From Cyanobium sp. NIES-981 (lineage in GTDB: Bacteria > Cyanobacteriota > Cyanobacteriia > PCC-6307 > Cyanobiaceae), in NCBI GenBank assembly GCA_945901765.1, contig CAMDLO010000018.1, forward strand, positions 1-33,268: 33,268 nt of DNA. Reading direction: 5' to 3'. This document shows, in pieces, positions 7,785 to 33,268 of the stretch. Both the position numbers and the translations under genes were made by a program. Numbering within the stretch: position 1 is the stretch's first letter; the number at the start of each line of letters is the position of its first letter. The notes beneath the pieces are model-generated. The model was not told where the DNA came from and did no database searches. It was given only the letters and a program-made list of their open reading frames with translations.

Positions 7785-7829
7785 TGCCTGAGTCAGCCTG
7801 CAGCGACTGCATCCACCCATGAACCCATG

Positions 7830-7855
7830 AAAAAGCGGCCGGATGAACCGACCGC
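7830..7855 (-). terminator. Rho-independent terminator downstream of petJ
   Basis: Minus strand GCGGTCGG-TTCAT-CCGGCCGC followed by TTTTT: 8-bp stem with one G-U pair, 5-nt loop, U tract. Confidence 0.8.
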
Positions 7856-16717: not shown

Positions 16718-19700
16718 ATGGCGGAGTTGCCAGATTCAGGCCCGCCTTCTCCCGGTTCATCCGCTTCAGGGTCATCAGCTTCAGGGCCATCAGCTTCTGG
16801 GTTACCCGCTTCAGGGCCATCCCTACCAGTCGATCCCCCCGCGGCCCCAGCTCGCAGCCCCCAGTCCCGGCTGCGGCCACTCCCCCTGCTGCTGGCACTT
16901 GGGGCCGGATCTGCGGGTCTGATCGGCTTGGCCCTCACCATGGCGGACCGGCTGGCCGAGTCGCTCTACGACCGTCACCGCCTTCAGCTGGAGCGTCAGC
17001 TGGGGGCGGTGTTGGGTCACCAGCTGGTGCTGGGGCCCTATCGCGGCATCAGCTGGTTTGGTCTGCAACTCGGTGAGACCAAACTGCTGCCTGAGAGCGA
17101 CGATCCATCGAGGATCACCGCCAGTGGTCTGGCTCTGAGCCTGGATCCGCTCAGCAGCCTGCGCCGTCGCCTGCCGGTGCTGGAGCTTCGCCTTGATGGC
17201 CTTGATCTGGATCTGCGGCGCAACCTGGCAGGCGGAGTCTGGCGCTTTGGCCCTGTCGTTTCCGGCCAGGCTCCTCCGCGGCTGGATCTGCGCCTGCGCC
17301 TCGGCCGCTCCGCCCGTCTGCGTGCCCCCGATCTGCGTCTCGATGTGCCCGTTCAGGGCCAGGTGTCGATCAGCCCGCACCGTCAGGAGATCGCCGCTGG
17401 GCTCAGTTTTGGCTCACCCGGTGCAGGCCCCGCTCCGCTGCAGCTTGTGGGCGGGGGCAACTGGTCGCAGGGGCGCTGGCGCGGCTCCCTGCTCACGCGC
17501 CGGTTCGATCTGGCCCAGCTCACCCCCTCTCTGGCTCTGCCTGGCCAGCTGCGTGGCCGAGCCGATGGCCGCCTGCAGCTGGCCTGGGCCCGCAACCGTC
17601 CCCAGTGCCAGGGCGACCTGCGGCTGCGCGGTGTGAGCTGGCGGAGCGGCCCTGACCAGCCGTCCGTCGAGCTGGCGTCACCGCTTCTCCAATGTCGTGA
17701 GGGCACCGTCCGCTTGCCGTCCACCCCCTGGCGCTGGGGGAAGCTGGGCGGCCAGGTGGCCCTGCGGGCCGGCTGGGGAGAGCGCCAGCTGACGGTTGAG
17801 GCGATCGAGATGCGCCGCGGGGCCTCCTGGTTGCGCGGCCGGGGCCGGGTCGGCAGCCGGCTCGATCTGACCGGCCGCTGGCGGCTTCAGCCCGGGGATC
17901 TCCCTCTGCCGAGCGGCATCCCTGCCGGCCTGATCGGTGGAGAGGTGGTTGGTGACCTGCAGCTGGCGGGCAGCTGGCGCCAACCGACGTTCACCAGCAA
18001 CCTCCGCCAGAGCGTCAATCCCCTGCTCGCCGCCTGGCGGGCCCAGCTGGTCTGGCGCAACGATTGGCTGCTGCTGACGGCATTCAACAGTGACCATCTG
18101 CAGGCCCGTGGCCGCCTGCCCCTCGGCCTGAGCGGCGGCAGGGGCGTGCGTGTCGGTGATCTCACGCTCGAGACGCGGCTGCGCGCCTATCCCCTGCAGC
18201 GGCTCGGCCCCCTGTTCGGCACCCAGCTGGGTGGTCTGCTCTCCGCCGAGGGCACCGTGCGCGGTCCGCTTGCAGCGTTGACGCCCGCCTTCCAACTCCA
18301 GGTCGAGCGGCCCCGGGCCGGTCCCCTGCAGCTGGCGGAGCGCTGGCAGGGCAGCTGGCAGGGTGAACCCACAGGCGGCGGCCGACTGGCGATGCGGCCC
18401 AGCGGACGGGAGGGCCTGCTGCAGGCTCGCCTTGATCGGCGCTGGGTGCCGGTGGCCATCAGCCTCGATCGCCAGGGGGGCCGCCTTCAGCTGGATGGCA
18501 GCCCGCGGGCCTACCGATGGCAGGCGCGGGCGTTCCCCCTGGCTGGTCTGCAGCTGGCGCTCGGCTCGAGGGGGCTGTTCCAGTCCCTGCAGGGCCAACT
18601 GGCCGGTGCTGGTGTGCTCGAACTGCAGCCCTTGGCGTTTCGTGGCCGCGTGGAGCTCGAGCGGGCCGGCGTGCTGGGCGTGACGGCGTCGCGGGTGCGG
18701 CTTGAGGGTGCATACGCCCAGCGCCGCTACCAGGCCCGGGGCGCGGTGGCGCTGCTGGATGGCGGCACCCTGGACCTCGACTGGAGCGGCCGCTGGCGTG
18801 GGGCCTACCAGGCCCGCATCCGGGGCGAGTCGCTCAGCGACAGCCTGGTGCGCCAGCTTCTGGACGCCTGGCCCCGCTGGCATGGCCGCCAGGCGGCCGT
18901 CCCTGGACGGGCCGCTGATCTGGGTTCCCTGCTGATCGACACCCTCGGCGCGAGCATCGATGCCCAGCTCGCCGCACTCAACCGTGCCCATGCGGCTGCG
19001 GCCTTCGGCCTCCAGCAGCAGCGGCTCACTCTCTCCAGCGCGGAGCGGCTGGACCGCCTTGCCGCCCGCTTCAATCTCACCGCTGACCTCAGCGGTCCCC
19101 GCCTGATCGATACCCGGGTCGATCTTCAGATGAGCGGTCATCTCTGGTTGCCCGGTCAGGATCGGGACCAGGCTCTGACCGGCGATCCGCTGCGTCTGTC
19201 GCTGCAGGGGCCTGTGCGGCTTGGCGGCGGTCAGTTGTCGCTTTCCGGGGTGCCCCTGGCCCTGTTGGCCCTGCTCACCCCGGTGCCGGCGGAACTGCGG
19301 GGCACCCTGGCAGCACAGGTGCGCTACCGCCTGGCCAGCACGCCTGCTCTGGCGGTCGATCTGGCCCTCGAGGAGGCCGGTCTCGGGGAGACTGACCTCA
19401 GCCTGGAGCGCGGTACCGTCAGCCTCGAGGGGGACGCCCTGCAGCTCGATCTCGCCCTTCGGGCCGCTGAGGCCGGCGGGGGGATCGAGCTGGTGGGCCA
19501 GGTGCCGCTCGATCCCCGTCAGGACGGCGTGGAACTGCGGCTCAGCAGCCGGGATGACGGTCTGCTGTTTCTGAGTCGTCTGGCGGGTCCCGGTGTCCGC
19601 TGGAAAGATGGTCGCGCCGACCTGCAGCTGCTCGTGCGCGGCAGCCTGCAGCGCCCCCTGGCCAACGGCTTCCTGCGGGTGCAGAACGGCGAACTGGACC

Positions 19701-31937: not shown

Positions 31938-32951
31938 TCAGTCCAGCAGCATCCGCGCCCGGCATGCGGCGCTGAACTGGCCGACGGCGGGGTCTGTGAC
32001 AGCAGTGATCGGCACCGAATCCAGCACCGGGGCGAGGCGGCCCTTGGCCTGGAAGGCCTGCACGAACGGATCACCCTGCAACGCTGTCAGCAGCTTGCCG
32101 GCGGTTCCGCCGGCAAGCCATACTCCGCCCCGGCAGAGACCCGCCAGCGCCAGGTCTCCGGCGACAGCTCCGTAGGCCCTCAGCCAGAGATCGAGCGCCT
32201 TGCTGGCCAGGGGATCCCCTGCTGACGCTGCAGCAGCGACGGCTGCCGGCAGATCGGCAGCCACCTGGCTCTGCAGAGGATGGTCACCCTGTGGATGGTG
32301 CAGCTGCAGCAGCCAGCGGGCCACCGCTCCCAGACCGGTGCCGCTCACCACCCGTTCGATCGACAACCGGTCCAGGTTCAGATCGCTCAACAGCCACTGG
32401 CGCAGCAACCACTCGTCCTGGTTGCGGGCTGCGAATTCGCCATGGCCCGCTTCGCTGGCGATCGCCTGCAGACCTGTCGCCGTCGGAATCCCGAAGGCCA
32501 CCCCCAGACCGGTTCCCGCACCCAGCACCAACAGCGGAGCGCTGCTGTCAGGGTTGCCGGCGCGGATGGTGGCCTGCTGGTTGCCCTGAAGGTGGGGCAG
32601 TCCGTAGATCAGCACTGCGAAATCGTTGACCAGCTCCAGCTTGCCCCTGCCCAGACCGACTGCGGCTGCCAGGGCATCCTGGTCGAGAAGCCAGGGCAAG
32701 TTTGTGAGCCTGGCCTGGCTTCCTTCCACTGGGCCGGCCACCGCGAAGCAGGCGGCGGCTGGCTGGGCAACACGGCCTGGTATTCCCACACCGGCTGAGT
32801 TGAGAAACCGTTGCACCATCGGCTCCAGTTCGGGCCAGTCTGCCGAGATGAAACGCTCAGAGGCCTGCAGCACGAGACGATCGTTTTCGCAGCTGTACAG
32901 CGCCAGCAAGGTTTTGGTGCCGCCTATATCGCCGGCCAGCAGGGTCGTCAT
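31938..32951 (-). CDS. glk: Glucokinase (Glk family)
   Basis: MTTLLAGDIGGTKTLLALYSCENDRL, CFAVAGPVEGSQARLTNLPWLLD, LVNDFAVLIYGLPHL, VLGAGTGLGVAFGIP, AGHGEFAARNQDEWLL, GVWLAGGTAGKLL. Confidence 0.93.
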   Translation of the reverse strand: MTTLLAGDIGGTKTLLALYSCENDRLVLQASERFISADWPELEPMVQRFLNSAGVGIPGRVAQPAAACFAVAGPVEGSQARLTNLPWLLDQDALAAAVGLGRGKLELVNDFAVLIYGLPHLQGNQQATIRAGNPDSSAPLLVLGAGTGLGVAFGIPTATGLQAIASEAGHGEFAARNQDEWLLRQWLLSDLNLDRLSIERVVSGTGLGAVARWLLQLHHPQGDHPLQSQVAADLPAAVAAAASAGDPLASKALDLWLRAYGAVAGDLALAGLCRGGVWLAGGTAGKLLTALQGDPFVQAFQAKGRLAPVLDSVPITAVTDPAVGQFSAACRARMLLD

Positions 32952-32955
32952 CGTT

Positions 32956-33006
32956 GGGCTGGCTTTGTCATAGGGCTGGCTTTGTCATAGGGCTGGCTTT
33001 GTCATA
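32956..33006 (+). repeat. Three perfect tandem copies of a 17-bp unit at the thrS/glk junction
   Basis: gggctggctttgtcata at 32956-32972, 32973-32989 and 32990-33006, identical in all three copies. Confidence 0.97.
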
Positions 33007-33268
33007 TCGATGGGCTCCCTGCAGCATGAGCCGCTGCCCAGGCCCGCTGCCCGCGCTGTGTTGGCGTAGACGGCGGCCTCCCTCAGCTCCGCCAGCGACA
33101 CCGCACCGAGGTCGCTGTCACGGCGGCTGCGCAGACTCACCTGGCCGCTTTCAGCCTCCTTGGCCCCGATCACCGCCAGCACTGGAATCTTCATCTGTTC
33201 GCCGTTACGGATCAGCTTGCCGAGACGATCGCCCGAGTGATCGACCGTGGCGCGGATGCCTGCCGCCC
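32985..33268 (-). CDS. thrS: Threonyl-tRNA synthetase, C-terminal anticodon-binding end; 5' part outside window
   Basis: Minus strand reads GIRATVDHSGDRLGKLIRNGEQMKIPVLAVIGAKEAESGQVSLRSRRDSDLGAVSLAELREAA..., the usual end of ThrRS, with an extra tail SCCREPIDMTKPAL*. Confidence 0.9.
   Translation of the reverse strand, partial: AAGIRATVDHSGDRLGKLIRNGEQMKIPVLAVIGAKEAESGQVSLRSRRDSDLGAVSLAELREAAVYANTARAAGLGSGSCCREPIDMTKPAL

Follow-up and report, generated by a model that had tools for sequence, protein, structure and literature searches.

The stretch of DNA analysed here (the window) is an entire contig of 33,268 bases from a Cyanobium genome of 129 contigs, 94% complete, whose named relatives are Cyanobium, Synechococcus and related picocyanobacteria. 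Near its right-hand end, on the minus strand, the 3′ end of thrS (threonyl-tRNA synthetase, ThrRS) is followed by glk (glucokinase), and the border between these genes carries three perfect tandem copies of a 17-base-pair (bp) unit, in which successive stop and start codons overlap to form a chain. The array probably arose by a recent triplication, through replication slippage, in the final thrS codons of an otherwise ordinary gene pair overlapping as ATGA. The triplication appears to have been tolerated, and no selected tuning of glk needs to be assumed.

Reading the minus strand from 33006 to 32956, three perfect copies of TATGACAAAGCCAGCCC were observed, followed by AACG and then by the ATG of glk (32951–32949). 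Tandem Repeats Finder reported the array (32956–33006, minus strand) with a period of 17, 3.0 copies, 100% matches and a score of 102, the highest in the window; judged as a repeat, it is far beyond chance. The thrS frame passes through copy 1 and ends at a TGA (32987–32985) overlapping an ATG at 32988. This ATG opens a mini-open reading frame (mini-ORF) of six sense codons, MTKPAL* (ATGACAAAGCCAGCCCTATGA, 32968–32988, minus strand), whose stop overlaps the ATG at 32971 of a second mini-ORF with seven sense codons, MTKPAQR* (ATGACAAAGCCAGCCCAACGATGA, 32948–32971, minus strand), and the stop of the latter overlaps the start of glk. The order is therefore thrS...MTKPAL*, MTKPAL*, MTKPAQR* and glk, and all three joints, at 32988, 32971 and 32951, are ATGA, i.e. 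overlaps of 4 nucleotides (nt) between successive ORFs. When the mini-ORFs are ignored, the direct spacing from the thrS stop to the glk ATG is +33 nt. As computed for copy numbers from 1 to 7, the ATGA chain to glk was always preserved, and a change in copy number never shifted glk out of the chain or off. An earlier reading of this DNA, made from the sequence only, had described the same array, coordinates, reading frames and chain, and had claimed that the chain survives gain and loss of copies; the sequence itself, Tandem Repeats Finder, the ORF frames and the computation agree with it on all of these points.

At three copies, thrS and glk also share a reading frame, with only one TGA (in the context TGAC) and the 11 sense codons for QSQPYDKASPT standing between them (window 32951–32987, minus strand). 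Read-through of this TGA would yield a ThrRS-glucokinase fusion; the same-frame state occurs only at every third copy number.

The chain can be derived from a single-copy ancestor in which the thrS ending would have been ..IDMTKPAQR* and the thrS TGA would have overlapped the ATG of glk. Collapsing the present array to one copy gives this ending, the TGA falling within the glk ATGA at a gap of −4. The 17-bp unit contains the in-frame Met codon of thrS followed by A (ATGA), and, as 17 nt is 2 mod 3, every extra copy necessarily displaces the frame. After slippage, thrS would thus stop at the TGA hidden in the ATGA of the next copy, while the ATG of that same ATGA would reopen the old thrS frame, which continues as far as the following ATGA and in the end reaches glk. 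The cost to ThrRS would be small: the end changes from MTKPAQR* to MTKPAL*, the terminal QR being replaced by L, and the change falls outside the match to the anticodon-binding domain. Ribosomes would reach glk via up to three serial termination-reinitiation steps, with an output probably somewhat below that of the single-copy state. Since ThrRS would be nearly intact and glk still reachable, the duplication could be tolerated and a selected tuning function is not required; the retained coupling may be the reason for this tolerance.

Outcomes of duplication were simulated on the one-copy (collapsed) junction by making every tandem duplication of units of 6–40 nt within the 60 nt upstream of the glk ATG. 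At two copies, a relay through an ATG mini-ORF was created by 285 of the 305 distinct duplications with a period of 2 mod 3 (93%). At three copies, all 983 triplications were classified: 411 gave a relay (42%), 344 kept a direct overlap, 207 made thrS run into glk and 21 left a gap; among the 17-nt registers, 9 of 29 distinct ones gave a relay. Relays are common after duplication here because the thrS tail has an A directly after an in-frame Met codon, which also explains why the chain is intact at any copy number from 1 to 7. The stop/start chain made by the array is therefore not beyond chance, and being a common result of duplication at this site, it is unusable as evidence of selection. 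Slippage had been mentioned in the sequence-only reading as the simple alternative; with the above frequencies, it becomes the better-supported origin.

Comparison with relatives showed that an ordinary ATGA-coupled pair is the commonest state of thrS and glk. A collection of 146 thrS-glk junctions, nearly all from the family, was reduced to 115 distinct ones, with the window and a second allele on contig C5 (see below) counted. An exact 4-nt overlap was found in 47, a 1-nt overlap in 3, a gap of 2–7 nt in 10, a gap of 8–40 nt in 30 (window included) and a gap of more than 40 nt in 25. Over the 43 gapped junctions, window included, 5 one-step relays through ATG mini-ORFs were observed and 1.5 were expected from shuffled gaps; with ATG, GTG and TTG starts admitted, the numbers were 9 and 4.2. 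Three of the 5 ATG relays came from a single clade, and the cases clustered in related genomes. Mini-ORF bridges in gapped relatives are thus only weakly above chance, and a general enrichment of such relays at gapped thrS-glk junctions was considered unconvincing because one clade dominates the counts.

One-step bridges of the form TGATG...ATGA were noticed in the related picocyanobacteria L063, L198, L202, L217 and L051. Those of L063, L198 and L202, three related genomes, are near-identical, TGATGGGAGTCCATCGCCTGAT(T/C)TCCCCATGA; the bridge in L217 starts with GTG, and that in L051 is TGATGCTTCCATCACGATGA. A perfect 14-bp tandem duplication, TTCGATGTCCCACT, is present within the thrS-glk gap of another relative (L130, 2592–2620).

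The array itself is known from one genome. With up to 2 mismatches allowed, the 17-mer was found nowhere else in its own genome; a 24-mer across the copy junction gave 0 matches in the other 399 family genomes searched, up to 3 mismatches being tolerated, and an exact search of viral contigs for the repeat gave no match. Unique in the genome and absent from viral contigs, the repeat was ruled out as a dispersed element. Its absence from the other 399 family genomes suggests a recent origin. Comparing relatives for a varying copy number, as had been proposed with the sequence-only reading, revealed no variant in these genomes. Among the titles and abstracts of open-licence papers listed by literature searches that paired tandem repeats or duplications with stop/start codon overlaps, there was no precedent for a relay built from a repeat.

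Published work bears on the passage of ribosomes from thrS to glk. In three E. coli pairs, reinitiation fell by 80–90% or ceased when the gap was 38 nt, and termination-reinitiation needed no more than 15 nt of upstream ORF (PMC10666635); the most efficient spacings were −4 to +3 (PMC12548453), and coupling was tied to gene overlaps or to very small gaps (PMC10666635, PMC12548453). By these data, a bare 33-nt gap would lose most of the coupling, and it is plausible that serial reinitiation through both mini-ORFs would keep some of the coupling so lost. The chain itself is most likely a recent by-product of slippage and no evolved control device. The earlier proposal had two parts, reinitiation from thrS to glk and tuning of glk output by copy number. 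The former is plausible in view of the −4 spacing at 47 of 115 junctions, the lack of a Shine-Dalgarno (SD) core before glk and the published spacing data; the latter is unsupported, as the array occurs in one genome, no copy variant was seen and 42% of simulated triplications make the same ladder.

Only the 3′ end of thrS is present (32985–33266, minus strand; tail ..PIDMTKPAL*, copy 1 being in the thrS frame in the ORF list), as the contig stops within the gene. It matched NCBIfam TIGR00418 (4.3e-14, residues 2–64) and Pfam HGTP_anticodon PF03129 (5.6e-14). The glk gene (31938–32951, minus strand; 337 amino acids) matched TIGR00749 with 229.4 bits, above the cut-off of 225.45, and aligned relatives were 61–70% identical; the gene order is thrS, glk and then thrB. 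No SD core was found in the junction sequence inside the 17-nt unit, as had been stated from the sequence alone, or ahead of glk. A GGAG core (33015–33018, minus strand) lies 9 nt upstream of the copy-1 ATG, outside the repeat unit, and is a weak possible ribosome-binding site indistinguishable from background, as 15% of 15-nt stretches in thrS coding sequence contain an SD-like 4-mer core. In the junction collection, SD cores upstream of glk were no commoner than this background, which would be expected from the low use of SD sequences in cyanobacteria (PMC6728339). No promoter-like site was detected within the last 669 bp, and no promoter- or terminator-like site between thrS and glk, which is compatible with a shared transcript. 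An Rfam scan of the junction was empty, with one sub-threshold antisense match inside glk, and folding of the junction was no stronger than that of shuffled sequences (z 0.63); a conserved regulatory RNA at the junction was rejected on these two results.

A different version of the locus was found on contig C5 of the same assembly (L032, G000:C5:1-3500; compared with window 32500–33268). It contains a complete thrS, a Sulfotransfer_4 gene (PF17784, 1.7e-34) and the first 158 codons of glk, the start of which overlaps the sulfotransferase stop as TGATG. As this is a different junction and C5 has neither a thrS-glk junction nor the repeat, its glk was rejected as a copy-number variant of the array. 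Between the two contigs, the thrS sequences agree completely over ~148 bp, as far as the codons for SLRSRR, and the glk sequences are almost the same after about codon 45; the stretch between these shared parts differs. Identity of the thrS tail to relatives reaches 71% for the window allele and 53% for C5, by which the window allele looks native. Most likely, two strains are mixed in the bin, one of which carries the three-copy allele. In the C5 allele, the thrS tail, the insert and the glk start are all replaced, and the sulfotransferase gene and glk start have a low G+C content (48–51% vs 64–68% around), which suggests horizontal exchange at the thrS-glk junction.

Several points weigh against a tolerated slippage event at a coupled pair. 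The single-copy state is absent from all genomes searched, and the ancestor is deduced from the present sequence; relatives tolerate gaps of 8–40 nt (30 of 115) and longer ones (25), and coupling may be irrelevant for glk; the array lies 262 bp from the contig end, inside a probable strain bubble, and its copy number may be an assembly error. If the error went further, with the entire junction wrong and two strain alleles colliding here, it would fit with that short distance and with C5, which shares ~148 bp of the window contig's end and ~125 bp of its own end with the locus and differs between. However, at 51 bp the array would fit within a typical short read, the junction is internally coherent, with a thrS tail and a glk start typical of the family, and the repeat is absent from C5 and so is no graft between alleles; an artefact, in copy number or in the whole junction, is very improbable. 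It is also conceivable, but rather unlikely, that the repeat is neutral and has no translational role, glk initiating independently (without SD) or via local unfolding and the mini-ORFs being unused. The gaps of more than 40 nt in relatives, the ordinary folding of the junction and the weak, clade-dominated enrichment of bridges agree with this, but 4-nt overlaps predominate among relatives, reinitiation is best documented at short overlaps, and the other allele, on C5, links an upstream gene to glk by an overlap too.

The opposite possibility is a selected rheostat, in which a copy number varying in the population sets glk translation via the number of reinitiation steps, never switching it off. 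Retention of the chain at all copy numbers from 1 to 7, the slippage-proneness expected of a perfect 3 × 17 array, and the poor coupling of a bare 33-nt gap (PMC10666635), by which the mini-ORFs could matter, speak for it; the array is nevertheless confined to one genome with no variation in copy number seen, its ladder form says little for selection when 42% of random triplications yield it, and gapped junctions suffice in many relatives. We give such a rheostat little credence, and equally doubtful is its general form, a self-propagating reinitiation ladder: whole stop/start steps would be gained and lost through slippage, and the number of 17-bp copies would give graded control, without an off state, over translation of a downstream metabolic gene.

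A scan of ~760 kb for similar ladders yielded nothing beyond short matches of period 8 and some longer arrays, positions relative to genes being examined in detail just for the match at 7815. There (window 7815–7831), the period-8 repeat ACCCATGAACCCATGAA lies outside the listed genes and also forms an overlapping ATGAACCCATGA mini-ORF, probably by chance. A 15-bp tandem repeat of ~4.3 imperfect copies is present at window 16757–16821; its period is a multiple of three, and it is possibly a coding repeat.

Read as recent slippage, the thrS-glk border is a natural example of a coupled gene pair absorbing a frame-shifting tandem duplication. The in-frame ATGA close to the upstream gene's 3′ end would serve as a frame-recovery point, by which the short-overlap linkage is kept whatever the copy number. 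A role as a biological regulator is unproven, the chain probably being incidental; as a ready-made construct of 1, 2, 3... steps, it could allow the efficiency of serial termination-reinitiation to be measured directly. Simple-sequence contingency loci are known for phase variation through slippage of tandem repeats. Like these, the present locus has a perfect tandem repeat at a gene border, the copy number of which could change; unlike these, it has a 17-bp unit in three copies with no variation seen, and glk is accessible at every copy number, i.e. there is no on/off switch. Its three standard 4-nt ATGA joints, the commonest thrS-glk type, resemble the ATGA/TGATG termination-reinitiation pairs of Huber et al. 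(PMC6728339, PMC10666635), but two extra mini-ORFs stand between the genes, and three serial steps rather than one would be required. The axe-txe minigene (PMC8708949) and engineered bicistronic leaders likewise have a very short ORF, the stop of which lies on or close to the start codon of the main gene, to which it could deliver ribosomes. This is different from the thrS-glk border, where the mini-ORFs are tandem copies, apparently without an SD of their own, and would receive ribosomes from a full-length upstream gene.
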